Shown here one piece after another: positions 32,677-61,995 of a stretch of 64,000 bases of DNA (position 1 is its first letter; every line of letters starts with the position of its first letter). Made by a program: the position numbers and the translations under genes. The stretch comes from Ruegeria arenilitoris. GTDB lineage: Bacteria > Pseudomonadota > Alphaproteobacteria > Rhodobacterales > Rhodobacteraceae. Under the pieces are notes generated by a model. It saw only the letters and a program-made list of their open reading frames with translations, was not told where the DNA came from and searched no databases. The DNA lies in contig NZ_WQCA01000007.1 in NCBI RefSeq assembly GCF_013032445.1, positions 1-64,000 on the forward strand, read 5' to 3'.

Positions 32677-33282
32677 TTAAGAGGCTGCCAGTTCCTCGAT
32701 ACATCGCCAACCATGTAGTGGTTTCATATCGTCGGTACTGAATTGAAACCAGTTGCCACCACCCCCGGGCCCCTGATCATATCTTCGATCTATTGGCAGC
32801 TGAGCCAATGCGCAAAACAACAGAGTGCCAACCCCGCCGTGTCCAACGAACAAAATGTCCCCCTCACCATGCTCTGACAAACAGGACTTCACTGCCCTGA
32901 CAATCCGATCCTGCGCAGCTGAGGCTGTCTCCCAACCGCGTACACTTACGTTTGGATGGGCGAAGAACTGATCTGCGACACCCTCGAACTCTACTGGCGG
33001 AAGAAACCCTGTCGCGCTGCGATCATTCTCATGCATGTCCTGGCGCATTTCGAGTTCTAACCCCAAAGCGACCGCCAACGGCTGCGCTGTTTCAATCGCC
33101 TTGGTTTCTTGACTGCTGATGATCCGGGTCGTTCCACGCAAAACGCCCAGACTTTCTGCTAGCCTGGACACGCGTGAGCGCCCGACGTCGTTCAGTGACC
33201 AATCAGGTATGTCGACGGCTGGATCAATCTGAACCTGCGGGTGGGTTAGGTAGCGAACGATACGGCCAACCAACACGCTCAA
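32677..33282 (-). CDS. Histidine phosphatase family protein with divergent RHG motif
   Basis: 201 residues. The phosphohistidine motif is R-Y-L-T-H-P-Q rather than L-R-H-G-E, followed by V-Q-I-D-P-A-V; S-S-Q-E-T-K-A-I-E-T-A (about 55-65) and V-G-H-G-G-V-G (about 148) with the second His match the branch-2-like core. A THP-type subgroup of this superfamily exists; activity is not proved. It shares a 4-base overlap with the OmpA-like gene, so the three genes from 36,098 down to here form one operon. Confidence 0.8.
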   Translation of the reverse strand: MSVLVGRIVRYLTHPQVQIDPAVDIPDWSLNDVGRSRVSRLAESLGVLRGTTRIISSQETKAIETAQPLAVALGLELEMRQDMHENDRSATGFLPPVEFEGVADQFFAHPNVSVRGWETASAAQDRIVRAVKSCLSEHGEGDILFVGHGGVGTLLFCALAQLPIDRRYDQGPGGGGNWFQFSTDDMKPLHGWRCIEELAAS

Positions 33283-34916
33283 CGCTCGGTCAGCTTCAAT
33301 TCGATCCGGCGGTTCTGTGCGCGGGCTTCAGGGGTATCGGTCGGGTTGACGGGTTGGAATTCACCAAAACCGTTGGCCGCTAGCCGGTTTGGTGGAATAC
33401 CCAACGCTTCAACCATGTAACGCACCACCGATAACGCCCTGCCCTGACTAAGTTCCCAGTTGTCGCGGTACCGCCCCGTCCCCGCCAAAGGAACGTTGTC
33501 CGTGTGACCATCCACCCGGATCACCCAGTTCAGGCCTTCGGGAATCTCGGCCGCCACGCTGCGCAGGATGGCGGCAACTTTGGCGACCTCCTGCTGACCG
33601 ACCGGAGACAAGATGGCCGAGCCAGTGTCAAACAGCACTTCGGACGAGAACACGAAACGGTCTCCCTCGATTCGGACACCTTCCTCGTCACCCAGCACAT
33701 CGCGTAAGCGACCAAAGAACTCAGACCGATAGCGCTGTAGGTCCTTGGCCTGCGCTGCGAGGTCTTCAGCCTCGGCTTCAAGCCGGATACGTTCGGCTTC
33801 TTCCAGCAGACGGCGGCGGCGTTCTTCCGAGGCCGCGCGCGCCAGAGCCGCGTTCAGATCCTGCCCAAGCGATTGAATACGAATATCGGCAGCGGCATTA
33901 CGTTCTTCGTAGTCATCGAGCAGCGCCTGCAATCCCCCCAATTGCTCGCGAAGCGCTGCCATCTGCTGATTCAGCAAAGCGGTTTCACGTTGCGCTTTTT
34001 CCGAGATCGCCTGTTCGCTGGACAGCGTATCGCGCGCTACGGCCAACAGGGCCGCGCGTTCCTCGGCCAATGTTCGTTGTTCTTGCGCCTCAGCCTCCGC
34101 ATCGGTTTGCGCGACAAGGGCTGCTTCCAGTCTGGCCCGCAGATCCTCGGCGTTCAATTCTCCAAACTGCCGTTCCAGTTCGGCCTTTGCGGCTTGGGCT
34201 GCTGCCAGCAGGGTCAACGTGTCTTCTGCTTCTTTACGCTGCGCCTCCAGCGCCAGAGTCATGGCCGTCAACTCGGCATCTGCATTCTGCAGGCGGTTGC
34301 GCAAGTTTTCAGCGGCGGCGGCTTCGGCCAACTTGGCGGCCTCTTCGGTGGTAAGCTGTTCTTCAAGCTCCGAAATACGACTTGTCTGTACTGCATCACT
34401 TTGCTCCAGATCAGCCACTAAAGCCTCAAGCGCTTCGCGTTGCGCGGCGGCCAGACGGGCAGCCTCGGTTTGCTCGTCGATCTCAGCTCGGCTTTGCGCC
34501 AGAGCCAAATTCAACGCCTCACGCTCGTCTTGCAATTCGGCGATTTCACCCTGTGACTGCTCCTGTTCCAGCAACAGAGCCGCGACCTGATCTTCAAAAT
34601 CCGTCAGACTTATCTGCGCCTGGACCAGCTCACTTTCAACCTGAGAAAGCGTTGAGTTCAACACCCCCAGCCGCGCCTGCAACCGGCTGTTTTCGCGTTC
34701 CTCAAGACCCAGCGCCCCGGCCAGTGCCTCGATCTCGTCCGAAAGGGCGGTCAGTTCATCCTCTTGCCCGGAAATGGTTTCGCGCAGCACGAACTGCACC
34801 ACCATGAAGATGGTCAGCACAAAGGTCAGCACCATCAGCAGCCCGGTGATCGCGTCCACGAAACCGGGCCAGACCGAACCCTGAAAACGCTGACCAGTGC
34901 GGCGGGAGAGAGCCAT
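33279..34916 (-). CDS. MotB/OmpA-like protein with long periplasmic coiled coil
   Basis: 545 residues. One membrane segment at about 20-44 begins W-P-G-F-V-D-A-I-T-G with Asp21 placed like the proton-carrying Asp of MotB. Residues 48-390 are a continuous A/E/Q/R/L-rich coiled coil. The C-terminal OmpA-like peptidoglycan-binding domain (about 410-545) has the typical V-D-G-H-T-D-N-V-P, L-S-x-x-R-A and N-R-R-I-E-L motifs. It should anchor a stator to the cell wall. Its start lies 3 bases after the stop of the ExbB-like gene. MotB proteins lack such a long coil, so the reach across the periplasm is unusual. Confidence 0.85.
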   Translation of the reverse strand: MALSRRTGQRFQGSVWPGFVDAITGLLMVLTFVLTIFMVVQFVLRETISGQEDELTALSDEIEALAGALGLEERENSRLQARLGVLNSTLSQVESELVQAQISLTDFEDQVAALLLEQEQSQGEIAELQDEREALNLALAQSRAEIDEQTEAARLAAAQREALEALVADLEQSDAVQTSRISELEEQLTTEEAAKLAEAAAAENLRNRLQNADAELTAMTLALEAQRKEAEDTLTLLAAAQAAKAELERQFGELNAEDLRARLEAALVAQTDAEAEAQEQRTLAEERAALLAVARDTLSSEQAISEKAQRETALLNQQMAALREQLGGLQALLDDYEERNAAADIRIQSLGQDLNAALARAASEERRRRLLEEAERIRLEAEAEDLAAQAKDLQRYRSEFFGRLRDVLGDEEGVRIEGDRFVFSSEVLFDTGSAILSPVGQQEVAKVAAILRSVAAEIPEGLNWVIRVDGHTDNVPLAGTGRYRDNWELSQGRALSVVRYMVEALGIPPNRLAANGFGEFQPVNPTDTPEARAQNRRIELKLTER

Positions 34917-34919
34917 CTA

Positions 34920-36098
34920 TTACTCTCCTTCCGGAGCAGAGCGAACGGCGCCTCGGGGCAATGTCAGGGCTTTGACCAACAGCTCGATATCCTTGCGCAG
35001 TTCGCTCATGCTTTCCTGGCGGCCAGCCGAAATCTCTTCGAGTATACGCAGCAGTTGCACGTCCATCGAACGCAGGCGCATCCGGCTTTCGGCATCAATC
35101 CCTTCGCCCGAGCCCTGTTCACGCATATGATCCAACAATGCGCTCTGCCCCAACGCCACCCGTTCCAGCGCGGCGGTCACGCCCTCGTTATCGGATTGAC
35201 GCTGGTTCATCTCGCCAATGGAGTCTGCCAACTGACCCAATCTAGACGACACGGCCGCACGGTCTGCCTCTTGCGCAGCAAACAGATCCTGCAGGGCGTT
35301 CATTTGTTCGGACATTGCGTCCAGCACCGGGGTCAGAACGGCCAGTTCAGCCCCACCCTCGTCACTTCCAGCAAAGCCAACGCGGGTAATCGAGGACAGC
35401 CATTCCTCAAGCTCGCGGTAGAACCGGTTCTGTCCGTGGCCCGCAAACAGTTCCAGCAGGCCAACGATCAGCGATCCGGCCAGACCCAGCAGTGACGATC
35501 CAAAGGCCACGCCCATACCCTGCAGTTGCGATTCCAGCCCAACCATCAGTCGGTTGAATACGGCCAGTCCCTCTTCGCCCTCTTGCGGGTTGAGACTGCG
35601 GATAGTGTCAACGATGGCCGGTACGGTGGTGGCCAGACCGAAAAAAGTACCCAAAAGACCAAGGTAAATTAGAACGTTGGTGATATATCGGGTGATCTCG
35701 CGCTCTTCCTCGACCCGCTCGGCCACCGAATCCAGAATAGAACGTGTCGAGGTGGAGCTGATCTGCGACCGCGCGCCCCTTTCGCGCAACAGCGAGGCCA
35801 GCGGTGCCAGCAACTGCGGTGTCCGCGCGTCTTCGCCGACGACACCGCCAACAAAAGCCTCGATCCAGCGAACCGACCCAATCAGCTGTGTCACCTGATA
35901 GAAACAGGCAAACACGCCGATAACGAAGACCAGTATGATGAAACCATTCAGGTAGGGGTTGGCCAACACCACGGGCATAACGTAGGGCAGCGCCATGAAG
36001 ACCCCAAACCCGGCCAAGGCGATCGCGACCAGCATCGTGACGATCTGACGAATGGGTTGCGAGAAATGCGGTCTCGCGCCCGGATGTGCCTGCGCCAT
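34920..36098 (-). CDS. MotA/TolQ/ExbB-like proton channel protein
   Basis: 392 residues with four clear membrane segments (about 17-42, 47-70, 140-165 and 198-223), the third and fourth with G-L-L-G-T-F-F-G-L-A and G-S-S-L-L-G-L-A-G-S, the MotA/ExbB core. The cytoplasmic loop lies between segments 2 and 3, and a helical tail of about 165 residues follows. Together with the next gene it forms a stator pair driven by ion flow. No flagellar, Tol-Pal or TonB gene is near. Confidence 0.85.
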   Translation of the reverse strand: MAQAHPGARPHFSQPIRQIVTMLVAIALAGFGVFMALPYVMPVVLANPYLNGFIILVFVIGVFACFYQVTQLIGSVRWIEAFVGGVVGEDARTPQLLAPLASLLRERGARSQISSTSTRSILDSVAERVEEEREITRYITNVLIYLGLLGTFFGLATTVPAIVDTIRSLNPQEGEEGLAVFNRLMVGLESQLQGMGVAFGSSLLGLAGSLIVGLLELFAGHGQNRFYRELEEWLSSITRVGFAGSDEGGAELAVLTPVLDAMSEQMNALQDLFAAQEADRAAVSSRLGQLADSIGEMNQRQSDNEGVTAALERVALGQSALLDHMREQGSGEGIDAESRMRLRSMDVQLLRILEEISAGRQESMSELRKDIELLVKALTLPRGAVRSAPEGE

Positions 36099-47760: not shown

Positions 47761-48135
47761 ATGAGAAAGAAACCCGGAACCAAGCAGAGCCACGGTGAGA
47801 AAGTTGTAAAAGACATCCGCCGCGCCACGCGTAAGCAATATTCAGCAGAAGAGAAGATCAGGATTGTGCTGGACGGCCTGAAGGGCGAAGACAGTATTTC
47901 AGAGCTGTGCCGCCGTGAAGGCATTGCCCAGAGCCTCTACTACAGTTGGTCCAAGGAGTTCCTTGAAGCCGGCAAGAAACGTCTGGCAGGCGACACGGCC
48001 CGTGCAGCGACATCGACCGAGGTCAAAGATCTGCGCCGCGAGGCACGCGATCTGAAGGAAGTGGTTGCCGAACAGGCTCTTGAACTGCGGTTGCTCAAAA
48101 AAAGCATGATCGCGGATGGGGGCGACGACGAATGA
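47761..48135 (+). CDS. IS3-family transposase OrfA
   Basis: 124 residues. Helix-turn-helix with R-I-V-L-D-G-L and S-I-S-E-L-C-R-R-E-G-I-A, then Y-Y-S-W-S-K, and a leucine-zipper-like C-terminal half with E-L-R-L-L-K-K. It binds the IS ends. AAGGAG lies 6 bases before the ATG. OrfB overlaps by ATGA, so it can be made by reinitiation or as OrfAB by frameshifting. Confidence 0.9.
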   Translation: MRKKPGTKQSHGEKVVKDIRRATRKQYSAEEKIRIVLDGLKGEDSISELCRREGIAQSLYYSWSKEFLEAGKKRLAGDTARAATSTEVKDLRREARDLKEVVAEQALELRLLKKSMIADGGDDE

Positions 48136-49112
48136 GGTATCCCGCATCCGAAAAACTGGAGATCATCCGCCTCGTCGAAGGTTCGCATCTCCCGACCAAG
48201 CGCATATTGGATAAGCTGAGCATCCCGAAGACCACCTTCTATCGCTGGTATGACCGGTATCTGTCGGGTGGTCCTGAGGCGCTTGAGGATCGTAGTCCCA
48301 AGCCATCACGGGTCTGGAACCGCATTCCGCAGCCAATGCGTGAGAAGATCAAGGACCTGGCACTGAAGGAAAGTGAGCTTTCCCCGCGTGAGTTAGCTGT
48401 TCGCTTCACCGACACAGAAAAGTACTTTGTGTCAGAGGCTTCGGTCTATCGCATCCTCAAGTCTTACGACCTGATCACCAGCCCAGCCTATGTGGTTCTG
48501 TCAGCAGCAGATGAGTTCCACGACAAGACGACACGGCCGAACCAGCTCTGGCAGACCGACTTTACCTATCTGAAGGTGATCGGCTGGGGATGGTTCTATC
48601 TCAGCACGATCCTGGACGATTACAGCCGATACATCATCGCCTGGAAGCTTTGTACGACGATGAAGACCGAGGATGTGACCAACACACTGGACCTCGCCTT
48701 GCAAGCCTCAGGCTGTGATCAGGCAACGGGGCGGCACAAACCACGCCTGCTCAGTGACAACGGGTCCAGCTACATCTCTGGTGAGCTTGCAGAATGGCTG
48801 GAAGATCAGAAAATGGATCATGTTCGAGGCGCGCCATATCACCCACAGACCCAAGGCAAGATCGAGCGCTGGCACCAGACCTTGAAGAACCGCATCTTGC
48901 TGGAAAACTACTATCTGCCCGGTGACCTCCAGCAGCAGATCGATGCTTTCGTCGATCACTACAATCACCGGCGTTACCACGAAAGCTTACAAAACCTCAC
49001 GCCCGCTGATGTCTACTTCGGACGCGGCCACACCATTCTGAAACAACGAGAAAGGATCAAACGGAAGACACTCGAAACCCGGCGCTTGCTTCACCGCAAA
49101 TCCGCCGCATAA
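48132..49112 (+). CDS. IS3-family transposase OrfB (DDE integrase core)
   Basis: 326 residues. N-terminal HTH with K-T-T-F-Y-R-W-Y, then the rve core: Asp in W-Q-T-D-F-T-Y, Asp in L-L-S-D-N-G-S-S, and Glu in G-K-I-E-R-W-H-Q-T-L about 35 residues later, a complete DDE triad. C-terminal Y-N-x-R-R-Y-H-E-S-L is typical of the family. No stop or shift is seen, so the element could still be active. Confidence 0.92.
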   Translation: MRYPASEKLEIIRLVEGSHLPTKRILDKLSIPKTTFYRWYDRYLSGGPEALEDRSPKPSRVWNRIPQPMREKIKDLALKESELSPRELAVRFTDTEKYFVSEASVYRILKSYDLITSPAYVVLSAADEFHDKTTRPNQLWQTDFTYLKVIGWGWFYLSTILDDYSRYIIAWKLCTTMKTEDVTNTLDLALQASGCDQATGRHKPRLLSDNGSSYISGELAEWLEDQKMDHVRGAPYHPQTQGKIERWHQTLKNRILLENYYLPGDLQQQIDAFVDHYNHRRYHESLQNLTPADVYFGRGHTILKQRERIKRKTLETRRLLHRKSAA

Positions 49113-49256
49113 TCAAACCAACCAGATGCGCCAGATCCTCTCTTAGCTCAGGCAGCCATCTGTCCCAAAATCCCTGACAACGGACAGTTGGTCAATGCGT
49201 CATCACCTGCCAGCTTAAGACATTTATGGACACTTGGGCTCTAAGCGAAACACAGT

Positions 49257-50594
49257 TCAAAGCTCGTTTTTATAGATGACTCCGTCCTTCATAATCAGGT
49301 CGAAGTTTTCTTGTGGGTCCCCTACAAGCTCCAAGTTTTCAAGCGGGTTGCCGTCCACGAGGATCAGATCAGCGTATGCGCCATCTCTGATAACTCCGAG
49401 TGGACCGTCTTGGTAGGGATGACGAGGGCCACTCATTTCCATTAGGCGGGCATTTTCAGAGGTCGCTATCTTGAGCGCTTGATAAGGCGTCATCCAAGTT
49501 CCCAACCTCACAAGATATTCGCTCTGTTGATACGCCTTTGATGGATCCATGAGTTGATCGGTGCCAAAGGCGAGATTCACGCCAATTTCGACGGCCATTG
49601 GGTACAGCGCGTCTACAGCATCAGTCACCTGTTTCCACTTTTTGGCACTAACTGGGCTATCCCAAACCATATCGGCCTCAAACATCGCCTGAGGACTGAG
49701 CCAAGCGCCTTTTTCCTTCATCAATTCCAGTGTTTCTCTTGATGCGAAGAAGCCGTGCTCAATGCTCATCACGCCGTTTTCTATTGAGGTACGGATACCT
49801 CTGTCTGTCATCACATGCGCCAAAACATAGGTATTAAAGTTCGTTGCCTCTTCGACTACCGCACGAATTTCGTCGACCGAATACTCGCTCACATCCAGCG
49901 GATCGTATTGGGAAGAGACACCACCACCAGTCGTGATTTTGACCTGAGTAGCACCAAACTTGAGGATTTCTCTGGTTCTCTTTCTGACTTCCGGTACGCC
50001 ATCAGAAATCATCGCCATCATATTTTTTTCCCAATAACTCAGTTCAGAGTTGGAGTTTCTTGGGTTTTCAAGCAGCGTGTGAAAGTCGGCATGGCCTGAC
50101 GTTTGGCTCATGAATGGTCCGGAGGGCAAAATGCGGTGACCGGGGTATTCACCAGCGTCAATCAGTTTCTTGATCGTAAACGGATTTCCGCCAGGGTCTC
50201 TAACGGTGGTAAATCCACGCATTAAAGTCTCTTCAGCCCCCTTCATACTGCGAATGGCCACTTCCGACATGTCGCCTTGATTCAACATTAGAACGGATGC
50301 AGGGGTGTAGGCATACGTCGTGTGCCAATGGACATCGATCAATCCTGGGATCATCGTGCGACCGCCACCGTCAATCACCACCGCGTTCTCGGCTTCGATT
50401 GGGTCGGAAGAAACAGCGGTTATGAGATTATCTTCGATCAAAACGTTAGCATTCTCGATGCGTGCTTCGTTTACCCCGTCAAAAACATGAACATTCGTTA
50501 TGAGAGTTCTTGTAGAATCCTCTTGAGCGCTCGCCAGCGTTGCCAGCATGCTTGAGACTACCAAGCAGAGCGTTGACAATTGATTTTTGCGCAT
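49257..50594 (-). CDS. Secreted amidohydrolase family protein
   Basis: 445 residues. Signal peptide 1-23 (S-T-L-C-L-V-V-S-S-M-L-A-T-L-A-S-A). Metal ligands are in I-D-V-H-W-H-T (HxH), V-K-I-T-T-G-G (bridging Lys), V-L-A-H-V-M, S-I-E-H-G-F-F and F-G-T-D-Q-L: a two-metal site of the imidazolonepropionase/prolidase-like group. Likely a periplasmic peptidase or cyclic amide hydrolase. The ATG at 50594 has AGGGTG upstream; a GTG at 50603 is less likely. Divergent from an AraC regulator 78 bases away. Confidence 0.85.
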   Translation of the reverse strand: MRKNQLSTLCLVVSSMLATLASAQEDSTRTLITNVHVFDGVNEARIENANVLIEDNLITAVSSDPIEAENAVVIDGGGRTMIPGLIDVHWHTTYAYTPASVLMLNQGDMSEVAIRSMKGAEETLMRGFTTVRDPGGNPFTIKKLIDAGEYPGHRILPSGPFMSQTSGHADFHTLLENPRNSNSELSYWEKNMMAMISDGVPEVRKRTREILKFGATQVKITTGGGVSSQYDPLDVSEYSVDEIRAVVEEATNFNTYVLAHVMTDRGIRTSIENGVMSIEHGFFASRETLELMKEKGAWLSPQAMFEADMVWDSPVSAKKWKQVTDAVDALYPMAVEIGVNLAFGTDQLMDPSKAYQQSEYLVRLGTWMTPYQALKIATSENARLMEMSGPRHPYQDGPLGVIRDGAYADLILVDGNPLENLELVGDPQENFDLIMKDGVIYKNEL

Positions 50595-50672
50595 ATCTTT
50601 CACCCTAGGAATATCAAAGCATTCGATTGTTTAATTTTAACGAAGGTAGCCAACTCTCCGAGGAAAATCGAT

Positions 50673-51626
50673 ATGAACTTTTTTAAGGAACTTGGCGAAG
50701 GCAAACCGGAGCTTTTTGCGGCAACCGTACGTGAAGCAATGACAGGAGAGGTTTTCGATGGCGATGTGATACAGTTGGGAAAGGGGGCTGACGAAGGCGC
50801 AATTTTCACAGCTCGTTTAGGGCTTTCCCGTTTGTCTAGTATCCGCTTCAAGCCCAATGCATTGGTGAGAACCGCACAAAGTGAAAGCTTCGCTAATTTC
50901 ACTGTACCAATCTGCGCTTCAGAGTTATGGACGGTAAGTGGCGTTCCTTTGAAAGAAAACTCCGTTTTCTTCAATTTCACTGCATCGGAAACCGAGGTAG
51001 TCGCGCGCAATCGAACTTCGTTATGTGGTCGTGTGCCCTTGCAACGATTTCTCAAAGAGGTTCAACTTTTTTCCGGCAGAAATACATCGGATTTTCGCGG
51101 ACCAACGGTTATCGTGAAACTGTCTTCTGATTTTCACGCAGCTTTGGTGCGAACACTTAGCTGCATAATGAACCAAGCCGATGGTCAATATACCCAGAGT
51201 GATTTGGAGGCGCGTCTTGCAAGGACGCTTGCGATCTTCTTTGCCTTATCTCTGAATAGTGGGAATGCACGCAAAGCGACTTGGTCTCAAAAAGTGGGTT
51301 TGGTCTCAAAAGCACGAGAGTACTATTCTTCCGCCTTGTCAAAAAGGCCATCAGTGGCAGATCTGTGTCGAGTAACCGCGGTAAGCGCGCCAACATTGAT
51401 CTCAGCATTTCGCGACGTAACGGGTGAAACACCAGCACGATTTTTTGCTCTTCAAAGACTGGCCAATGTCCATGATGAACTTATTCAGGCGTCTCAGCAA
51501 AAACCCATGGTGAAGCAAGTGGCGCTCGCTCACGGATTCACCGATTTGGGACGATTTGGGAGCCTGTACAAAAGCATATATGGAATTTTACCATCAGAGC
51601 AAATTGAGCGTACTGTACCCATTTGA
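50673..51626 (+). CDS. AraC family transcriptional regulator
   Basis: 317 residues. N-terminal ligand-binding region of about 200 residues and C-terminal HTH (about 220-310) with S-V-A-D-L-C-R-V-T-A-V-S-A-P-T-L and V-A-L-A-H-G-F-T-D-L-G-R-F. GAGGAAAA supports the ATG at 50673. Codon use and GC are lower than in the core genes. It most likely controls the divergent amidohydrolase gene. Confidence 0.87.
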   Translation: MNFFKELGEGKPELFAATVREAMTGEVFDGDVIQLGKGADEGAIFTARLGLSRLSSIRFKPNALVRTAQSESFANFTVPICASELWTVSGVPLKENSVFFNFTASETEVVARNRTSLCGRVPLQRFLKEVQLFSGRNTSDFRGPTVIVKLSSDFHAALVRTLSCIMNQADGQYTQSDLEARLARTLAIFFALSLNSGNARKATWSQKVGLVSKAREYYSSALSKRPSVADLCRVTAVSAPTLISAFRDVTGETPARFFALQRLANVHDELIQASQQKPMVKQVALAHGFTDLGRFGSLYKSIYGILPSEQIERTVPI

Positions 51627-51756
51627 CCGGTTGTCTTTTTAGTTCTGCCGAAAACCGATTAATACGAATCTCGGCTCCGATGTAGCAGAGTTCCCTTGAC
51701 GGATTGCAATGGCACCTCAACGATTTGCCAAACAGAACTATGGATTGGACGGCGGA

Positions 51757-52101
51757 ATGTTTTCATTTTTTTTGAATTTCTACAGGCTCTTAAAAGCGAT
51801 TGTCCGCTCGTGGAGTAGCCCTAGATTCCGCGGAGCGCTTACCCTTGCAATACTCTTGTTGCTTTCCGGAACTTTGTTTTATGTCAGCGTCGAGGGGTGG
51901 TCTTGGGTGGACGCGCTGTACTTCAGTGCAACTACTATTTCTACGGTTGGCCTCAGTGACCTAACGCCCGTAACCGACACAGGAAAACTCTTTACCGTGT
52001 TGTATATTTTCGTAGGCGTCGGGGTCTTCATCACGCTGTTTGTACAATTCACACATGCCCTTCTTAGGGACTACGATGAGAAAAAGTCGTCAGATAATTG
52101 A
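51757..52101 (+). CDS. Two-TM ion channel (Kir/KcsA-like pore) with altered filter
   Basis: 114 residues. A membrane segment (L-T-L-A-I-L-L-L-L-S-G-T-L-F-Y-V), pore helix W-V-D-A-L-Y-F-S-A-T-T, filter T-V-G-L-S-D, and a second segment (L-F-T-V-L-Y-I-F-V-G-V-G-V-F-I-T-L-F). This is the Ion_trans_2 plan, but the filter has L and S where K+ channels have TVGYGD. No ligand-binding domain. GGCGGA lies upstream of the ATG at 51757; an ATG at 51709 adds 16 polar residues. Confidence 0.75.
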   Translation: MFSFFLNFYRLLKAIVRSWSSPRFRGALTLAILLLLSGTLFYVSVEGWSWVDALYFSATTISTVGLSDLTPVTDTGKLFTVLYIFVGVGVFITLFVQFTHALLRDYDEKKSSDN

Positions 52102-52249
52102 AGACTGAAGCAACGGTCTTTCGGTCGTTGCACCCTAGCGCTTCGCTCTGCCGTATGCGGTTAAGGTCGTTGAGAAACTGCTTGGATTAAGGCAAACAAA
52201 GCAAAGACAAGGTTCTTTATCATCTTGTCTAAGCAGCTAGTTTGAGAAC

Positions 52250-53422
52250 ATGGCCTCCGTAGCACAACTAACCGACTGGATGATTACCGAAGGACGCCGC
52301 TCAGGCGACCCTGTTAAAGTAGTTTCGCATTTCTGCTCGTCCTTAATTGAGGAAGGTGTACCGCTCTGGCGGGTCAATATCGGTCAGCGCTTCGCCAATC
52401 CGCTACTCATTGCATGGGGGGTCGTTTGGACACCTGATGGGACCGACAGCTACGACGTAACTCATGAAACGATGTTGACGGAAGGGTATGTTGGTAGCTC
52501 GTTTGAGTACATTCTGGAGCACAGAAAGCCGCTTCACAAAAGCCTGCGACAACTGGATCCAAAGACTGAGCATTTATCGTATCTAGAGTTCGCTGAGCTC
52601 GGTGGCACAGATTACTATGCAACTCTGATGTATTATGGCGACGGATCTCTGCACGGCTGCACATTTGTCACGCAGGAACCAGACGGCTTTTCACCGCAAC
52701 ATCTGGAATTGATTGAGGCAGCGCTGCCTGCTTTGTCTTCCGCTTTGGAACCTGTCACGATGCGCAAGTCAGCCAAGGGTCTATTGCGAACATATCTTGG
52801 CGATGGGCCCTCCGACGCCGTATGGAGCGGGCGGATCAAGCGAGGCGAACGAACGACCCTTGATGCGGTGGTCATGTTTTCTGATTTACGAGGGTTCACG
52901 GCGCTTTCAGAAGCCGCACCCGAGGCCGATGTGTTTGACGCGCTGAGCGGCTACTTTGATCTGGTTGTTCAGTCTGTGGAAGATAACGGTGGCGATGTTC
53001 TCAAGTTCATGGGTGATGGAATTCTCTCGATCTTCACCATCGCAACTCAGGCTGATCACGCCGACCGATGCCGAAAGGCTGCGCAAGCCGCACAAAGTGT
53101 ATTGGCCGGTTTGACGGTCCTCAACCGTCGCCGCGCTGAAGCGAAAAAGCCGTCTTTGGACGTTGGGATCGGGATCAATGTTGGACAAGTCAGCTATGGC
53201 AACATCGGCAGCCCTGGTCGACTTGATTTCACGGTTCTCGGAGGTGCAGTGAACGTTGCGAGTCGAATTGAGGGGCTGACTAAATCTATTGGCCGGAGAG
53301 TGCTGGCAACATCTGCGATTGCCGAAGTCTCCCCTGATCTGTTTTCCCCTTGTGGGTTTCAAGAAGTTCGTGGACTTGCGCGTCCAATCGAATTGTTTTC
53401 TCTCGTCGAAGAAGAGCTTTGA
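52250..53422 (+). CDS. Class III adenylate cyclase
   Basis: 390 residues. N-terminal part (1-175) is a sensor-like domain of unknown type. The cyclase domain (about 190-385) has M-F-S-D-L-R-G-F-T (first metal Asp), K-F-M-G-D-G-I (Lys for adenine, second Asp), L-D-F-T-V-L-G (Asp for adenine), and N-V-A-S-R (transition-state Asn/Arg). All key residues for cAMP synthesis are present. It follows the channel gene by 149 bases on the same strand. Confidence 0.87.
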   Translation: MASVAQLTDWMITEGRRSGDPVKVVSHFCSSLIEEGVPLWRVNIGQRFANPLLIAWGVVWTPDGTDSYDVTHETMLTEGYVGSSFEYILEHRKPLHKSLRQLDPKTEHLSYLEFAELGGTDYYATLMYYGDGSLHGCTFVTQEPDGFSPQHLELIEAALPALSSALEPVTMRKSAKGLLRTYLGDGPSDAVWSGRIKRGERTTLDAVVMFSDLRGFTALSEAAPEADVFDALSGYFDLVVQSVEDNGGDVLKFMGDGILSIFTIATQADHADRCRKAAQAAQSVLAGLTVLNRRRAEAKKPSLDVGIGINVGQVSYGNIGSPGRLDFTVLGGAVNVASRIEGLTKSIGRRVLATSAIAEVSPDLFSPCGFQEVRGLARPIELFSLVEEEL

Positions 53423-53673
53423 TTCAGCGCTGACTTAATTTTGGCAGCATCGCGAGAAGCAGGAACCAGATATTGGGCACCAAGTGTTAAAAGGCAGGTT
53501 TTTACCTCATTTGGGAGTTTGCAAAGCCCGACGATGGATGTCCGGTTTGGGCTGCGACCAGTCGATCATGCAAGCCGCAGAGAACGGCAACACTGAGCCC
53601 AAAAGTGCTCAATTCTGGGCCGACGACGAATGACTGCTTCCGAGATGAAGAGTGTCTGGGGTTGCCTGAAACA
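53423..53673. other. Intergenic region with one copy of a dispersed repeat
   Basis: No gene is seen. TGTCCGGTTTGGGCT lies at 53539-53553, followed 45 bases later by GAGCCCA. The same core is found at 55703-55717 (inverted) and 62290-62304. No terminator with a clear T-run follows the cyclase gene. Confidence 0.5.
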
Positions 53674-54639
53674 TCAACCGAAGGTTCGCGGTACGATGAT
53701 ATCGCGATTTGACACGAGTTTTTGGGCTTCATCCACGAGGTCTTCAAATGTGGTCAAAACAATACCGCGCATCCAGACAAGGGCCGGGTCCGCGTCCAGC
53801 TCCGCATTCCAGATGACACGAAAAACAAGATCGGGCATCGGTTCGGGCGGTTCCAGGACTTGCAGGTCGTCGCCAGCGCGGCCCTCCAGCAAGACTAACG
53901 CAACAAAGTTTCCCAACATGTTTGTATCGTTCAGCGCTGATGCGATTCCGGACCAGCTAGCCGCGTGAAATCCAATGCGGCGCTTCAAACCAAGATGGGC
54001 AAGATGCTCTTCGACCGTACCGTGGATGGCGGCCGGAATGCTCACAACGGCATGCGGCCATCGCATCCAGTTGTCCAAGCTCCAGTCATTTGTCGCCGGG
54101 TGGCCCCGCCGGGCCAGAACATAACGTTTCATCGGTTTCAGGACTTTTGCCCTCAGACCTTCAGGCAGGGGAAAGTTGGCGTTTCCAAATGCGATATCCA
54201 CTTCACCCTTGATGATCTGATCCATGGTTTCTTTGGAATAGGGTTGCCATGCCAATGCCGCATCCGGTGCTTCTGCCTGCATGCGCGAGACAACTCCAGA
54301 GGCGATGCAATTCAGCGCCGGTCCTGCCATGCGAAAGGTCCTGGAGCAGGTCATGGGTTCGAAGGGGGCGGGCGCCTGCACCACGCGTTCGATACGTGAC
54401 AGGATCGGTCGGATCTCGCGATACAGGGCCTCGGCCCGCGGGCTTGGTTTCATAATGCCACCGGCGCGCACCATTAATGGGTCATCCAGTTGTTCGCGCA
54501 ATCGCCCAAGCGCGTGGCTCACGGCCGAGGGTGTTCGGCCGAGCTGTTCGGCGGCCCGGTTCACGCTGCCCTCTTCCATCAGGACCCGGAAGACGAGGAG
54601 CAGGTTCAGGTCGAGGTTCTTGATCTGAATTTCATTCAT
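53674..54639 (-). CDS. LysR family transcriptional regulator
   Basis: 321 residues. N-terminal HTH: L-N-L-L-L-V-F-R-V-L-M-E-E-G-S-V-N-R-A-A-E (about 10-30) and S-A-V-S-H-A-L-G-R-L-R; then the periplasmic-binding-like effector domain (about 95-305). NodD/NahR-like branch by the P-S-A-V-S-H-A motif. Divergent (95 bases) from the DoxX-like gene, its likely target. Confidence 0.9.
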   Translation of the reverse strand: MNEIQIKNLDLNLLLVFRVLMEEGSVNRAAEQLGRTPSAVSHALGRLREQLDDPLMVRAGGIMKPSPRAEALYREIRPILSRIERVVQAPAPFEPMTCSRTFRMAGPALNCIASGVVSRMQAEAPDAALAWQPYSKETMDQIIKGEVDIAFGNANFPLPEGLRAKVLKPMKRYVLARRGHPATNDWSLDNWMRWPHAVVSIPAAIHGTVEEHLAHLGLKRRIGFHAASWSGIASALNDTNMLGNFVALVLLEGRAGDDLQVLEPPEPMPDLVFRVIWNAELDADPALVWMRGIVLTTFEDLVDEAQKLVSNRDIIVPRTFG

Positions 54640-54734
54640 CTAGACTGAAAACTATTTGCTGGAGTGACGCTACCTACAGTCATAATCATAAGAAAACGTA
54701 CTGAAATGCAATCGCAACCTGAAGGAAATTCACG

Positions 54735-55193
54735 ATGCCGTTCTCCCTTCCGAACCTCCGGACGTTTCTGATCGATCCTGCGCCGCGTCTGTTACTTGGC
54801 GGCATATTTCTGATGGGGGCGTTGGACGGATTTGCGTTCATTTTCACTGGCGCACACCTGATACATCCGCCGACCTCTTCCGCCGGGCTTGCGCTTGAAG
54901 CGGCGCTCAAGGAGGCCGGATTTCTCTGGCCATTGATGAAAGGTGTCGAACTGGCAGGTGCGCTTCTTCTTCTGTCCAACCGGGCCCCTGCACTGGGGTT
55001 GGCCCTGCTGGCACCAATAATGGCCGTTATCGTTCTGTTTCATGCCACCCTCAATCCCGGAGGACTCCCGCTCGCGTTTGTCCTGATCGTTTGCGGAATC
55101 CTGATCCTATGGGTCCAACGCTCAAGGTTCTCGGTTCTCTTTGAGACAGGCACGCCGGGGGCAGAGACCCGTCCCGTTCCCGCTCCCACCTAA
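54735..55193 (+). CDS. DoxX-like small membrane protein
   Basis: 152 residues with four membrane segments (about 15-37, 65-85, 90-108, 110-128). P-R-L-L-L-G-G-I-F-L-M-G at the start and W-P-L-M-K-G-V-E-L-A-G-A-L-L-L in the second segment match DoxX/SURF4-like proteins. No known activity. First gene of a pair with a small cytosolic protein. Confidence 0.75.
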   Translation: MPFSLPNLRTFLIDPAPRLLLGGIFLMGALDGFAFIFTGAHLIHPPTSSAGLALEAALKEAGFLWPLMKGVELAGALLLLSNRAPALGLALLAPIMAVIVLFHATLNPGGLPLAFVLIVCGILILWVQRSRFSVLFETGTPGAETRPVPAPT

Positions 55194-55217
55194 GATCTTT
55201 CAACAAGGAGAAGACCA

Positions 55218-55478
55218 ATGCCCAGAGTTATTGCAATGCATGATGTGGACGATGTCGAACACTGGCTTTCATCCCCCAAGCGCGATGAAATCTTCAAGGA
55301 GGTTGCCTTCGACATGGTGACTTTCGTCCATCCGACAGAGCCCAATAAGGTCGGCCTGTCCGCCAACATCCCAGATCTGGACAAGTTTTTCGAGATCAAC
55401 AACGGACCAGTCGGCCAGGCGGCGATGAAACACGATGGTGTCCATGCCGACACAATTGTTGTCATGCTCGAAGCTTAG
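55218..55478 (+). CDS. Small hypothetical protein (86 aa)
   Basis: 86 residues, acidic, with a D-V-D-D-V-E-H-W-L start and F-V-H-P-T-E-P-N-K-V-G-L in the middle, a pattern of small alpha/beta barrel dimers of the DUF/EthD-like type. Not assigned to a family. AAGGAG lies 12 bases upstream. Sits 24 bases after the DoxX-like gene, so the LysR/DoxX/86-aa set is a unit. Confidence 0.7.
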   Translation: MPRVIAMHDVDDVEHWLSSPKRDEIFKEVAFDMVTFVHPTEPNKVGLSANIPDLDKFFEINNGPVGQAAMKHDGVHADTIVVMLEA

Positions 55479-55775
55479 CGTCTTTCAGTTATCAGACCGG
55501 TATACCCGCGCCAGTCCTGCCATTCGTCTAAGCGAGATGAATGGCAGGATTGTCCGCAATTCTGCCGTTCAGCAGAATTAAGCGAACGTCCGCTGCTGTT
55601 CAATGCAGACCTTCAGGCGAAATTCCCCGGAATGACCTCCAACAATGACCGCTATCCGTTCCTAAGCCGTCATCTGACTGAAAGACTCAGATGACCGTGT
55701 TGAGCCCAAAGCGGACACCGGAAAATGTCAGACGACGCCAAAAAGTAGCGTCGCCCGATAGTCGCGGTTGTCGCT
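55479..55775. other. Intergenic region with tandem hairpins and a repeat core
   Basis: Two perfect hairpins: CCTGCCATTC/GAATGGCAGG (55516-55548, 13-base loop) and AATTCTGC/GCAGAATT (55558-55579, six-base loop). Neither is followed by T. AGCCCAAAGCGGACA lies at 55703-55717, the inverted copy of a dispersed intergenic repeat. Confidence 0.55.
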
Positions 55776-57269
55776 TTATTCTACCAGTTCCAGATCACCG
55801 GGACGCCAGGTCTTGTCGAACCAAGGCTCAAGCGGGCCATAGAGGCGCATCATCACGTTGAAGCTTTGCCCGGGCATGGTTTGCGCCCAGTTGTTCTCCC
55901 AACCTTCTGGGGCTTCTGGACCAAAATAGATGCTGGTACTCCCATCCTCATTCGGCTTTATCCCTGGTCTATTAGAGTCGATACCACCGGATTGCTGGTC
56001 AGTTTCAAGGATTGACCGAGTCTGTCCGCTATACAACATAAACGACGCAAAGTTTTTGGCGGGAACCGGCGCCGGGAGCGTTACCTTATAGGTTTTTGAG
56101 CCGTCAAGGTACTGTCCGTTGTTGTCTCGCGCTGTCATCGCATAGACAGACCCCGTCCCGACCGGTGGCGAGGTCATCGCAGGCGTTATGCCCGTTGCCA
56201 TATAGAAAAAGTACGACCGATCATCGAGGATGCGCGCGCCGTCCTCAAGAAACTGATAGCTCTGGCGTTGGAACGGTGAGTTCCATTGCCGGTCTTCATA
56301 AAAGAAAACTCCCGGATCGCGCGAGGCATACGTAATTGCTCGCGCCGTGGCATTTGCTATAGCTGCTGCCTCCTTGAAAATGGCCTGCATACGGGCATCG
56401 GGTTCAAAGGGCTCGCCCTTCCTGATCCCTATGGAAGCAAACGTTCCTACAATTTCCGGACTGAACGCACCAATTGGATTGTTTTCGAGCGCGACGTGGA
56501 TCTCTTCAAAGAAGTCTTCGTTGTTCGCGTGAACAGTGTTGTGTTGAACACCGGAGATATTCAGGAAAGTTTCCGCGGGAGGATTGTCCGCTTCACTAAG
56601 CGGATAGATATTCAGACCCGCCTTAATCTCGGCAACAGGGCCAGCCGTATCTCCGTCTGCGTCTGGCGAGCGTCTTAGCAACAACCAGTGCTCATATGTC
56701 TTTGTGCGTAGTTCGAAGTAGCCCTCGGGCACCGGCGTTTCATCGTCGTTGTGCAAAAGTAGATACTTGCCACCTTCTCCCTTATCCGCGCCAAGCGCCC
56801 CGATATCCGTCACATAGTCAAACGCGGCGTCATCAAGCAACCCAAGCAGGCCTGCCGGAACCTGAATCACCATCGGGCCATTTGAGATATCAACATTCGA
56901 ACCAATGTAGATTGTGGTTGTATTGGGCGTCAGCCAGATGGACCGCGCGTCCAGCAGGTCTTCTGCAATCACAACGTCATTGGGATTGACGCCCAAGTCT
57001 TCGTATCCCTTAAACATAGCTCGAAGCGAAGCGATCTTCATGCCATCCAGGAAAGCCGTCGTCGCTCTGATCAGATCAAGGTTGTCGAAGACTTTCTCCA
57101 CCGTCTCAGGTGATGGCATACCATCGAAGAATTCCAGATCACCAAGCGTCTGGGTCTCAACCTTGTCTGGTGTAAGAACATTCTCAGGAACGTCGGCTTT
57201 GAATTCTTGGGCTGAAGAATGCGATGCGAGTACTAGGGCAGTCAGCACAGCTAACGACTTTGTTTTCAT
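55776..57269 (-). CDS. DUF1254/DUF1214 domain protein, secreted
   Basis: 497 residues. Signal peptide 1-20 (S-L-A-V-L-T-A-L-V-L-A-S-H-S-S-A). N-terminal DUF1254 (about 50-180) with T-P-N-T-T-T-I-Y and G-P-M-V-I-Q-V-P, C-terminal DUF1214 (about 370-490) with F-G-P-E-A-P-E-G-W-E-N-N-W and F-x-R-L-Y-G-P. The function of these domains is not known. GGAGCGAA supports the ATG at 57269. It follows its paralogue by 34 bases. Confidence 0.85.
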   Translation of the reverse strand: MKTKSLAVLTALVLASHSSAQEFKADVPENVLTPDKVETQTLGDLEFFDGMPSPETVEKVFDNLDLIRATTAFLDGMKIASLRAMFKGYEDLGVNPNDVVIAEDLLDARSIWLTPNTTTIYIGSNVDISNGPMVIQVPAGLLGLLDDAAFDYVTDIGALGADKGEGGKYLLLHNDDETPVPEGYFELRTKTYEHWLLLRRSPDADGDTAGPVAEIKAGLNIYPLSEADNPPAETFLNISGVQHNTVHANNEDFFEEIHVALENNPIGAFSPEIVGTFASIGIRKGEPFEPDARMQAIFKEAAAIANATARAITYASRDPGVFFYEDRQWNSPFQRQSYQFLEDGARILDDRSYFFYMATGITPAMTSPPVGTGSVYAMTARDNNGQYLDGSKTYKVTLPAPVPAKNFASFMLYSGQTRSILETDQQSGGIDSNRPGIKPNEDGSTSIYFGPEAPEGWENNWAQTMPGQSFNVMMRLYGPLEPWFDKTWRPGDLELVE

Positions 57270-57303
57270 TGTTCGCTCCATTGGGAATTACTGTTTGTTT
57301 TGA

Positions 57304-58815
57304 TCAGTTTACTTTTTCTAGATCGCCCAGCATCCAGCCACTCTCCAGCCATCCGTCTTGCGGCCCATATAGACGAAACAAAAGGAAGTACGGCTCTGTG
57401 GTTGGTATCCAGTTGCTTTCCATGCCTTCCGGTGCTTCTGGTCCAAAAAAGATGTCGTAAGAACCGTCTTCATTAGCCTGCATCGCATCAGTGTCGCGCT
57501 CGGACAAACCGACAGGATCAACGTTCCGAATGAAGCTCTTGGTCTCCATCGAATAAACAATCACGGACCAGAAATCGTCGGCAGGTGTATCCGCTGGGAC
57601 GTTCAGTTTATAGGTCTGATTGTGATCGTACATTTCCCCGTCGCTGTCGCGCAGGCCTGTCAGATAAAATGTACCTCCGCCCAGTTGTTTCGGCAGGTAT
57701 GTAATCCAGAAATAACTGCCGCCCGCACGCGCATCCACAAGGACTTCGGTCTCAGTCTCATACGGAAAACCTGCCTCGGGTTGACCTTCGGCAAAGTCCC
57801 ATATCAGCCACTGGCTCTTCATCTCGCCGCTATCGTCGACCCAGAGCGGGATCATGGCTTTGCCGGGCGTTACAAAGTAGTTCTGCATTGAGGCATACGC
57901 CAACAACAAACCCTCATTCATAGCTTGCATCTGAATTTCTGATGGCTCGAAAGGTTTTCCCTTTTCGATCCCGAGATCCTTCAGGAAATTTACCATGACC
58001 TTGTCTTGTGGTCTGACGGGGTTGTTTTGAACGTAATCGTTCAAATCCTGAAAGAAGGTCTCGTTGTAGTATGGAAGCGAGTCGTACGGCACTTCTGACG
58101 CTTCGAGATAGTTGTTGGGTGGTGGATTGTCAGCCTCAGACAGGTAGTACACTTTGATCGTCTGAGCGTAGTCGGCCGCATCGGCGTCCGTTCCGCCATT
58201 CGTCAGTTTTGGCCGGAACGAAAACCCATATTCGTAGGTATCTGTTTCAAAGGGAAGGTATCCCTCCTCAGTTAATTCCTCCAGCGACATATCCCCTTCG
58301 TAGCCTGGGGGTAGCATAAGGTACTTGCCGCCGGCACCTTCATCGAAACCGTCGGGACCAACGTCCACAATCGGAACATCCCAGGCATTTACGATTGTAC
58401 CGAAGTAGTTCACCTTGTCGGTGGCAGCGGGCACTTCAATGACAAGGGGGCCGGGTTCGGAGGTCATCGAAGCCCAAGCATAGGCCGTAACATCGTTGGC
58501 CGTAAGAAACCCGTGTTTGGAGTCGAACGGCTTGTTGAGATAAATGATGTCATTGTAGTCGCCACCGAGGTCGCGACGAATGCCCTTGAGGAAATCGATC
58601 ATACCGGCGGCAGGCATTCCCCAGATGGCCGTCTGGGTGGCACGCTGCACCATAATCTTGTACTCGATGTCCTCGACCTCGGCTGATCGGGCAAGGATGT
58701 CGCCCGTGTCGTTGAAGGACTGTGAGAAAACTGGTGAAGCAGAAATACCTGCGCCGAGCACCATTCCCAAAAAGTGCATCGAAAAACCGCCGTGTAGTGG
58801 CCGAAGTATTTTCAT
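57304..58815 (-). CDS. DUF1254/DUF1214 domain protein, secreted (paralogue)
   Basis: 503 residues, same domain order as the next gene. Signal peptide at about 1-30 (F-L-G-M-V-L-G-A-G-I-S-A-S-P-V-F-S). N-terminal W-G-M-P-A-A-G-M-I-D-F, then A-Y-A-W-A-S-M and G-P-L-V-I-E-V-P; C-terminal F-G-P-E-A-P-E-G-M-E-S-N-W and F-R-L-Y-G-P-Q. First gene of the pair, with GGGAGC upstream of the ATG at 58815. The divergent AraC gene is 97-112 bases away. Confidence 0.85.
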   Translation of the reverse strand: MKILRPLHGGFSMHFLGMVLGAGISASPVFSQSFNDTGDILARSAEVEDIEYKIMVQRATQTAIWGMPAAGMIDFLKGIRRDLGGDYNDIIYLNKPFDSKHGFLTANDVTAYAWASMTSEPGPLVIEVPAATDKVNYFGTIVNAWDVPIVDVGPDGFDEGAGGKYLMLPPGYEGDMSLEELTEEGYLPFETDTYEYGFSFRPKLTNGGTDADAADYAQTIKVYYLSEADNPPPNNYLEASEVPYDSLPYYNETFFQDLNDYVQNNPVRPQDKVMVNFLKDLGIEKGKPFEPSEIQMQAMNEGLLLAYASMQNYFVTPGKAMIPLWVDDSGEMKSQWLIWDFAEGQPEAGFPYETETEVLVDARAGGSYFWITYLPKQLGGGTFYLTGLRDSDGEMYDHNQTYKLNVPADTPADDFWSVIVYSMETKSFIRNVDPVGLSERDTDAMQANEDGSYDIFFGPEAPEGMESNWIPTTEPYFLLFRLYGPQDGWLESGWMLGDLEKVN

Positions 58816-58926
58816 ATTGCAATGCTCCCTGCTGTTTAGGGAAAGCTTGCACATCCGTTCAGCCGATGCGTATCATTTCACGACACGCGGGCGAACAAGC
58901 GGGTTAACGGATTGAACCTACCACCG

Positions 58927-59934
58927 ATGATTTCGGCCAAGGCCTTGGGCGCGATGCCCCAGTTTGTGCTTGAGGCCGCTGGGGAAAGACGCCTGTTGCG
59001 TGCTTTTGAGTCTGCCGATCTTCCTGTTCACTTCATTGAGGAAAGAGGCGGTTACATCTCGGAGCATGCCTTGGCGAACTTTGTGCACGAAGCCGCACGA
59101 TCCTCGGGACAACAAAACATCGGATTGTTGTGGTCACCGTATCTCACTGTCGCTGACTACGGCGCCTGGGGGAGTTACGTTCTTTCTGCTCCAACGCTGG
59201 GGGCAGCGCTAATACGAGCTTCTGCCGTCATGCCATTTCATTCGTCCACGGATCGCGCGTGGCTTGAAACTTCGGGCAATAGCGCGCGTTATTGTTATCG
59301 TTTTGGACTTCGCAGGCATTTCGCATATCCGGACATCGGTTTCTCGGCTGTTGGGGTTTTTCTGAGTATATTCCGCGCGTATTTAGGAAACGACTGGAAG
59401 CCATCGGCCGTGCTCTTGGACTTCCCGAAGGTTCCTGGATTTGTCGAGGCAGAAGACACCTACGCTTGTCCTGTAATCTGGAACGCCCCCCGGCTTGGGG
59501 TTGAGTTTGATGCCTCGGCTTTAAGAGCCGAAGCCACGCCCAAAAAACTCACCGGCGCCTCGACAACTGTCGGAGATATTTCTCGCGAACGATTGGGCGG
59601 CCCACCCCAAACACTTCGAGGACAAGTCGCGGAAGTGGTGTGGCAACAACTTCATCGGGAGGAAATGTCGATTGATGCCGCCGCGCGTTCGCTTGATCTT
59701 GGCGTTCGTACACTGCAACGGAGGTTAGCGAGCGAAGGGGTTCGTTTTCGCGAAATCGTCAACGATGTCAGGGTAGCAAGGGCCGAAGAACTCCTCACAG
59801 ATACGCGCGAGACAGTCTCCAGTATCTCCTCCATGCTAGGATATGAAACCGCAAATAATTTCAGCCGCGCATTTAGGAAGGTGACGGGACTGACGCCCTC
59901 TGACTATCGCAAGATGAACTCCGGTCATAGTTGA
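58927..59934 (+). CDS. AraC family regulator with Arabinose_bd-like N-terminal domain
   Basis: 335 residues. N-terminal part resembles the OruR/ArgR-type AraC sensor domain (about 15-200), C-terminal HTH (about 230-330) with S-I-D-A-A-A-R-S-L-D-L-G-V-R-T-L-Q-R-R-L and S-S-I-S-S-M-L-G-Y. A TTG five codons earlier (58912) is possible. It most likely regulates the two divergent DUF1254 genes. Confidence 0.85.
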   Translation: MISAKALGAMPQFVLEAAGERRLLRAFESADLPVHFIEERGGYISEHALANFVHEAARSSGQQNIGLLWSPYLTVADYGAWGSYVLSAPTLGAALIRASAVMPFHSSTDRAWLETSGNSARYCYRFGLRRHFAYPDIGFSAVGVFLSIFRAYLGNDWKPSAVLLDFPKVPGFVEAEDTYACPVIWNAPRLGVEFDASALRAEATPKKLTGASTTVGDISRERLGGPPQTLRGQVAEVVWQQLHREEMSIDAAARSLDLGVRTLQRRLASEGVRFREIVNDVRVARAEELLTDTRETVSSISSMLGYETANNFSRAFRKVTGLTPSDYRKMNSGHS

Positions 59935-61371: not shown

Positions 61372-61384
61372 CTTAGGCCGTTGC

Positions 61385-61415
61385 TCAACCTCAAAAAAGT
61401 TGAGCTGCCTTTTTA
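61385..61415 (+). terminator. Probable terminator after the 173-aa gene
   Basis: CTCAAC, nine bases, GTTGAG, then CTGCCTTTTT. A second hairpin (GTGGCCCCGC/GCGGGGTCAC, about 61428-61452) follows without a T-run. Confidence 0.6.
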
Positions 61416-61476
61416 TCAAACCATTAGTGGCCCCGCAGTTTGCGGGGTCACTTGTTAGTAATTGAGCCTCCCCAAC

Positions 61477-61789: not shown

Positions 61790-61995
61790 CTGGCCGGGCT
61801 TCAGAGCCTGATCCGAACTCACCTTGGCGAGCCGGGATTTGGTGTAGACGAACTGGCACGCCTATGCGGTTTCCACCGGGAGACATTGAACAATCGGCTT
61901 GCTCCCTACGGGCAATCAGCCTCTCAGGTCATATCTGGCGTCAAACTGGAAGAAGCAAAGAAGCTGCTGGGTCCGGCAGGGAAGTCCGTTGGTGA
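61519..61995 (+). pseudogene. IS3-family transposase OrfA, truncated and fused out of frame
   Basis: The first about 90 residues are a normal OrfA (M-A-N-K-R-P-K-P-E-E-I-V, then E-Q-T-Y-Y-R-W-R-K-K-Y-G-G-M, ending L-T-L-D-K-L-I-L-T-E-A-A). At this point the native K-G-N-F-type end is lost and the frame runs through the AraC fragment in the wrong phase to a chance stop at 61995. It cannot transpose. Confidence 0.85.

Follow-up and report, generated by a model that had tools for sequence, protein, structure and literature searches.

A conserved alphaproteobacterial gene pair, present in Ruegeria arenilitoris, that may encode a wall-anchored ion-driven motor with a long coiled-coil rod

The DNA analysed here is a stretch of 64,000 nucleotides (nt) from Ruegeria arenilitoris (assembly GCF_013032445.1, contig NZ_WQCA01000007.1, positions 1 to 64,000; hereafter the window). 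At positions 32,677 to 36,098 it contains three consecutive genes on the minus strand, encoding a putative motor-ring subunit (A), a putative axle or wall-anchor subunit (B) and a histidine phosphatase (P). Their features, drawn from open reading frames (ORFs; lengths in amino acids, aa), alignments, profile matches and AlphaFold2 (AF2) models, are as follows.

34920-36098, minus strand: gene A, predicted motor-ring subunit resembling MotA, TolQ, ExbB and ZorA, with a helical tail (ORF of 392 aa, ATG start; ZorA1 profile match at 1.2e-9)
34962-35369, minus strand: C-terminal helical tail of A, about residues 244-379, presumably cytoplasmic (alignment and low-confidence AF2 helices)
33279-34916, minus strand: gene B, putative axle or wall-anchor subunit, adjoining A (ORF of 545 aa, ATG start; NF006542 match)
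34854-34856, minus strand: codon of Asp21 of B, presumed proton-carrying residue (invariant in 31 aligned Rhodobacterales B proteins)
33693-34781, minus strand: long coiled coil of B, about residues 46-408 (AF2 helices; heptad lengths and hydrophobic pattern in the family)
33309-33635, minus strand: OmpA-like peptidoglycan-binding domain of B, residues 428-536 (PF00691 at 3.3e-19; GHTD and NRR motifs intact)
32677-33282, minus strand: gene P, histidine phosphatase, a lineage-specific neighbour outside the conserved unit (ORF of 201 aa, TTG start)

The gap between A and B is 3 nt long, and B and P overlap by 4 nt (TTGA), in agreement with a first-pass annotation of this DNA that had described three overlapping or nearly touching genes.

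The pair was compared across 60 Rhodobacterales regions spanning A-B (11.6-18 kb each), a further 80 Rhodobacterales loci, and a class set of 80 regions drawn from 78 genomes. Most of the class set goes back to the stronger B-type hits in a search of 190 alphaproteobacterial genomes, 162 of which gave some B match at E 0.001, many of these being generic OmpA proteins. A lies directly before B, in the same strand and order, in all 60 Rhodobacterales loci, and directly before it on the same strand in 76 of the 80 class loci. The four class exceptions comprise two loci from genomes with A elsewhere (L151, L173) and two second B-type matches in genomes that carry an intact pair at another place (L152, L175). 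A itself is present in 120 of 121 Rhodobacterales genomes and, at E 1e-20, in 123 of 190 class genomes (104 of the 153 of good quality), about two thirds of the Alphaproteobacteria sampled; the closest named relative of the window protein, 94% identical, is from R. denitrificans. A MotA1 match over the cut-off was found in 106 of the 121 Rhodobacterales genomes, and the remaining 15 all carry A. Outside the class, strong A matches (>200 bits) were recovered from four genomes in a 249-genome phylum sample (G389, G451, G485, G466), each with B alongside. In the loci L338-L341, from four non-alphaproteobacterial genomes with a strong A-B pair, A is short in L338-L340, with only 243-267 aa and almost no tail. 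The possibility of phage-borne copies was rejected, since no match was found in 50,697 phage records; one scan of viral contigs confirmed no relative. The conserved unit is A-B, and it is old.

The AF2 model of A contains four long helices (residues 16-46, 48-83, 115-167 and 177-243) followed by the helical tail, with a mean predicted local distance difference test score (pLDDT) of 74 and a predicted template modelling score (pTM) of 0.55. The best 48 rows of a Foldseek search with this model are all Tol, ExbB(D) or ZorAB entries, and VIA-align comparison with PDB structures over about 190 residues gave Z values of 11.9 for TolQ, 11.3 for ExbB, 10.4 for ZorA and 9.7 for MotA. No Pfam family matches the window protein at E 0.01, and PF01618 (MotA_ExbB) is matched by 19 of 28 class relatives; fold and family together bear out the initial description of A as ExbB/MotA-like. 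All 28 A proteins match a ZorA profile (best 2e-16) and 20 of them match NCBIfam ZorA_4. The NCBIfam matches of A are led by ZorA models, none of the seven families listed at E 0.01 being TolQ, ExbB or MotA, and the window protein scores 18.1 bits against NCBIfam ZorA, for which the cut-off is 500. When the A profile was searched directly against PDB sequences, only helical proteins of other kinds were retrieved. The third helix carries the motif LGLLGTF, which we take to resemble those of TolQ and ExbB, the transmembrane motifs are invariant in the aligned set, and the tail is kept in most aligned rows, being short or lost in L213, L196, L177 and L202. In a maximum-likelihood tree of A, ZorA, TolQ, ExbB and MotA, the ZorA-like ORFs form one clade (support 98/99) and the alphaproteobacterial A proteins a weak group (65/78). 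These data support the assignment of A as a motor-ring subunit of the MotA/TolQ/ExbB fold, closest to ZorA by profile. Separately, A-like proteins of 331-357 aa from small genomes that all belong to one other family (L349, L350, L351, L357) form a distinct clade with support of 100/100; the sequence retrieved on either side of their genes contained no B-type ORF at E 1e-3.

Gene B is a real gene beyond chance, given its conservation with A and its 782.9-bit match to NF006542 (PRK09039.1-1), a curated NCBIfam family with a cut-off of 388. The families NF006542-NF006546 (PRK09039) bear the generic name 'peptidoglycan -binding protein', with no stated function, and a Sinorhizobium meliloti record likewise labels A as 'MotA/TolQ/ExbB proton channel family protein' and B as 'peptidoglycan -binding protein'. 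The first helix of B contains W16-P-G-F-V-D21, which places an Asp at the MotB position, as had been proposed. The WP motif with its Asp is found in the window protein and in 60 of 60, 76 of 80 and 75 of 76 loci; the five exceptions are three WAG-type proteins that keep the Asp and two unusual ORFs (L152, L175). The GHTD and NRR motifs of the wall domain are present in nearly all B proteins, and solved MotB and PomB are among the PDB sequences nearest to the OmpA end. B also matches ZorB models (3.7e-21) and flagellar MotB models, the latter below their cut-offs; among the 25 of its 42 NCBIfam matches that were listed, none is of TolR or ExbD type. The coiled coil and OmpA-like end described in the first-pass annotation were both confirmed; the coil was put there at about 340 residues, and about 369 residues separate the first helix from the OmpA domain.

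The length of this rod, counted from the motor Asp to the GDRF motif at the start of the wall domain, was measured in 215 of 217 B proteins (two lacking a motif were dropped), of which 209 are distinct (78 from the class set and 131 from Rhodobacterales), and ranges from 158 to 1009 residues. In the class set 56 of 78 rods are exact multiples of seven residues, and 16 leave a remainder of 3 or 4. With each length counted once, 28 of 45 class lengths are multiples of 7 (p = 1.9e-13), control periods of 5, 6, 8, 9, 10, 11 and 13 being flat, and among distinct Rhodobacterales lengths the count is 32 of 100 (p = 5.5e-6). Because raw counts share ancestry, each protein was also paired with its nearest relative by wall-domain identity. 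Among the 33 class pairs of unequal length, the difference is a multiple of 7 in 15, where 4.7 would be expected (p = 1.7e-5). Thirteen congeneric genomes were searched as well, and the twelve unbroken B proteins found, of 545 (four), 559 (three), 566 (four) and 580 (one) aa, differ throughout in steps of 7; the match in the thirteenth is split. In each third of the rods of exact heptad length, hydrophobic residues occupy two heptad positions relative to the Asp; in the final third a neighbouring position rises. The proline-rich linker of another protein, encoded upstream of A outside Rhodobacterales (described below) and measurable in 29 of 60 cases, served as a control and gave no period-7 signal (p = 0.24).

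The single-chain AF2 model of B (pTM 0.34) has helices at residues 17-128, 135-250 and 257-408, and is thus helical throughout the rod apart from two breaks. The simplest reading is a single, largely unbroken and probably two-stranded coiled coil running from the motor helix to the wall domain, with stutters of 3 or 4 residues that are commoner in Rhodobacterales. A rod folded back into a hairpin was considered and rejected, as lengths of 14n are not preferred over 14n+7 (30:26 and 23:24), yet the AF2 model does show the two breaks.

Taken together, these features are best explained by a housekeeping motor built from A and B that is ion-driven, belongs to the MotA/TolQ/ExbB (5:2) type and is distinct from the flagellar, Tol, Ton and Zorya systems. 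This reading is given a probability of roughly 0.53. Such a motor would consist of five A subunits surrounding two B subunits in the inner membrane, it would probably be proton-driven, with protons carried by Asp21 of B, and it might serve the envelope or growth. The OmpA domains of B would bind peptidoglycan and keep B stationary, as the peptidoglycan-bound OmpA domain does for MotB; with B fixed to the wall, A would turn and move its helical cytoplasmic tail inside the cell. A moving tail has been proposed for ZorA as well. The two-stranded coiled coil of B would act as a torsion-bearing strut linking axle and wall, a role in which twist has to be withstood and for which a rigid rod locked in register is well suited. 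A periplasmic OmpA-fold protein, whose gene lies immediately upstream of A in many other Alphaproteobacteria, may join the system there. A fuller picture can be put forward only tentatively: that this is an undescribed housekeeping rotary motor with an intracellular output, a chromosomal relative (or sister) from which Zorya motors may derive, and that its stiff, register-locked shaft evolves in length mainly by heptads, up to about 1000 residues, and runs obliquely or along the wall.

Several observations weigh against this reading of A and B as a housekeeping motor. The best Foldseek E value for A is 6.5e-3, with none below 0.001, from a model with the modest mean pLDDT given above, and a designed three-helix bundle reaches a VIA-align Z of 10.6, near those of real relatives, so that this score is weak on its own. 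The tree has long branches and does not resolve the relation of A to ZorA and MotA, and some A proteins have no tail in the alignment. The heptad signal is weaker in Rhodobacterales, where 47 of 131 rods leave a remainder of 0, 30 of 3, 21 of 4 and 33 another, where nearest-relative pairs of unequal length differ by a multiple of 7 in only 16 of 56 cases against 8 expected (p = 4.2e-3), and where periods 11 and 13 also reach p ~0.04. The rod of the window protein, 397 residues, is itself off phase (5 mod 7), and AF2 breaks its coil at residues 129-134 and 251-256, where confidence is low. A straight rod, at 0.15 nm per residue, would measure 55 nm in the window protein and about 147 nm in the longest relative, and the periplasm is 20-30 nm across; a simple radial strut therefore cannot fit many members, and the rod would have to be oblique, bent or laid along the wall. 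Finally, in at least eight small genomes of about 0.7-2.0 Mb (G125, G143, G204, G222, G251, G260, G271, G274) A is separated from the best B-type match, which is on another contig or far away, so adjacency is common and not strict; genome reduction may have split the pair in these lineages.

The alternative that survives best, although it too is doubtful, is a tether or tension sensor that does not turn, in which the pair links membrane and wall or reports wall strain through the tail of A, and ion flow serves gating and not power. The great variation in rod length, with the wall-binding domain and the Asp kept, is in keeping with such a device, as is the lack of an adjacent effector. A pure tether would, however, have no need of the invariant Asp motif and A transmembrane motifs found in the aligned sets, and a ruler should be of constant length, which rods spanning the range given above are not.

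A reduced or divergent Zorya defence motor, with A-B sensing phage injection and the tail of A recruiting unlinked effectors, is improbable. ZorA is the nearest named family of A, with a ZorA profile matched by all 28 A proteins, B matches ZorB models, an A gene stands beside a wall-binding B gene in both systems, and both types of A have a tail. The plan resembles that of ZorAB, with no effector found alongside, as had been remarked at the outset. No ZorC, ZorD or ZorE was found among the scanned window neighbours, the genome-wide search covering ZorC alone. In that search the ZorC family PF15611 exceeded its cut-off in only two of 121 genomes, on a contig other than that of A or 228 kb away; the match in the genome of the window, on contig C22, falls below the cut-off. 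Eight neighbour proteins of the window compared with defence models gave only AAA-ATPase-type matches and one of methyltransferase type. The tail of A is short, and its 392 aa compare with 675-1074 aa for the ZorA-like ORFs found, while the long rod is on B, the ZorB-like neighbours found having 208-227 aa in six of seven cases and the seventh being an ORF of 444 aa. Near-universal presence in an order, the lack of phage copies, and recurrent neighbours that, where identified, are housekeeping genes also speak against a defence system.

A spare flagellar or Tol/Ton stator is less probable still. Fold and Asp chemistry are the same, B shares its Asp-bearing helix and OmpA-type wall domain with MotAB and PomAB, with the resemblance to MotB described above, and A resembles TolQ and ExbB in fold and in the LGLLGTF motif. 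The genome of the window, however, already has three further PF01618 genes at separate loci, of which one exceeds the MotA1 cut-off and another has tol-like neighbours (by eye), and A persists in the 15 genomes that have no over-cut-off MotA1. A has no MotA family match, the coil of B is far longer, and B differs from TolR and ExbD in its OmpA domain and in its listed family matches. TolQ and ExbB have three membrane helices, and A has an extra N-terminal one. As had been observed at first inspection, no flagellar, Tol or Ton gene is near: none occurs among nine Pfam-scanned proteins (the three focal proteins and six neighbours), tolR, tolA, tolB and pal are not among the scanned window neighbours (a separate tol-like cluster, judged by eye, is on contig C78), and Tol or flagellar genes are not among the recurrent neighbours of the pair in other loci. 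Least credible of all is a signalling operon of all three genes, with P working together with the motor; the 4-nt overlap of B and P in this genome would suit it, but the distribution of P contradicts it.

P is a clear member of the His_Phos_1 family in Pfam (8.6e-17; 61.9 bits against a cut-off of 21.7). The first-pass annotation had coupled it to the system, and had itself named a lack of conservation of the phosphatase as counting against its reading. P was found in none of the 60 Rhodobacterales regions around A-B (E 1e-4) and in none of the 80 further loci (E 1e-5), 76 of which contain B and at least 700 nt after it, and R. denitrificans is among the loci without it. Homologues were detected in eleven other genomes of the genus, in ten on a contig other than that of B and in one (G309) 1.3 Mb from B. 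In the related locus L061 the place after B is taken by a gene of 221 aa (5041-5706) that is unrelated to P and has no Pfam match at E 1e-5, and a 56% identical relative of it lies near B in L217 (about 740-1381); the slot after B is therefore variable. P was consequently rejected as a partner of A-B, and is a chance, lineage-specific neighbour. Its motif R-Y-L-T-H-P had been called unusual: the T-H-P is indeed present, but it is also kept in the single genus homologue that was aligned, that of congener G312, which lies beside an ABC-transporter-like cluster (by eye). A second copy of P, 47% identical, is encoded on contig C35 of the window's genome (3922-4446). The homologue of that paralogue in a congener (L356:6646-7212) lies near ABC-transporter-like and inositol-phosphatase-like genes, as judged by eye.

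Outside Rhodobacterales a different third gene accompanies the pair. Its product is exported and has a proline-rich central part and an OmpA fold at the C-terminus; a profile detected it upstream of A in 60 of 76 class loci; the profile was built from 32 of these upstream proteins, which match by construction. The gene lies within 250 nt of A in 59 loci and 1370 nt from it in L164. Four members were scanned and all exceed the Pfam OmpA cut-off, but the protein has no GHTD motif (by eye) and therefore may not share the wall binding of B. Searched with the class profile, 41 Rhodobacterales genomes gave OmpA-type matches in 39, all of them weak, the best scoring 45.6 bits (G038, on a contig other than that of its A) and that of the window's genome 24.5 bits, against 52-285 bits upstream of A elsewhere. 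A link between loss of this gene and a longer rod was dropped, the class medians being 259 residues where the gene is present and 201.5 where it is absent (p = 0.11), the reverse of the trend considered. Overall the first-pass annotation is partly supported; it had missed both the upstream gene and the heptad quantisation of the rod.

Recurrent neighbouring genes were identified from a Pfam scan of a single representative of each. Those outside Rhodobacterales, counted with a simple gene picker that sets lower bounds, are inositol monophosphatase (at least 36 of 76 loci), a convergent ABC transporter (at least 33), elongation factor P (at least 28) and thiamine-phosphate synthase (at least 21). 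The S. meliloti record has the order thiamine-phosphate synthase, inositol monophosphatase, A, B, ABC transporter, and only about 0.3 kb precedes A, not enough to hold the third gene. In Rhodobacterales the recurrent neighbours are DUF2125 (42 of 60), a ClpA-like gene (40; no representative scanned) and ChaC (33). An M23 peptidase gene follows B closely and convergently in 20 of the 60 loci (e.g. L108:10551-11510), a possible wall-related link.

In their survey of MotAB homologues, Puente-Lelievre et al. (2025, PMC12505986) describe non-flagellar B subunits as lacking OmpA-type domains and long linkers. The A-B pair resembles the generic ion transporters of that survey in having a non-flagellar A subunit adjoining a B subunit; it differs in the long linker and OmpA domain of B, and is an exception to that statement. 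No study recognisable as being of the pair was found in the literature searched, which included few subscription journals and no preprints, so a description elsewhere is possible. The name PRK09039 occurred there in two papers, a phage genome report and a blue-light study. The passages available from the Tol/Rgs, CenKR and DalA papers do not mention the pair; those on CenKR and DalA list RSP_1880 of Rhodobacter sphaeroides, a 'peptidoglycan-binding domain-containing protein', and those on DalA also RSP_1033, an 'OmpA family protein', either of which might correspond to B. If A-B is a housekeeping motor, a large bacterial class would have in its core genome a further wall-anchored ion motor beside the flagellar, Tol, Ton and Zorya systems, and the Zorya motors a possible housekeeping relative. 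The rods, from the shortest to the longest, would then offer a natural length series for testing the mechanics of a motor strut; heptad quantisation predicts that changes of 7 residues are tolerated and changes of 3 are not, or less so.

Within the window, the upstream neighbours of the pair encode ChaC, DUF2125 and extensin-like proteins (Pfam). Downstream and convergent is a Clp ATPase with Clp_N, AAA and D2-small domains, read as ClpA-like; a glyoxalase-type and a methyltransferase-type protein complete the six scanned neighbours. The G+C fraction is about 0.56-0.62 over most of the window and 0.48-0.56 within positions 48001-64000, which may be a genomic island.

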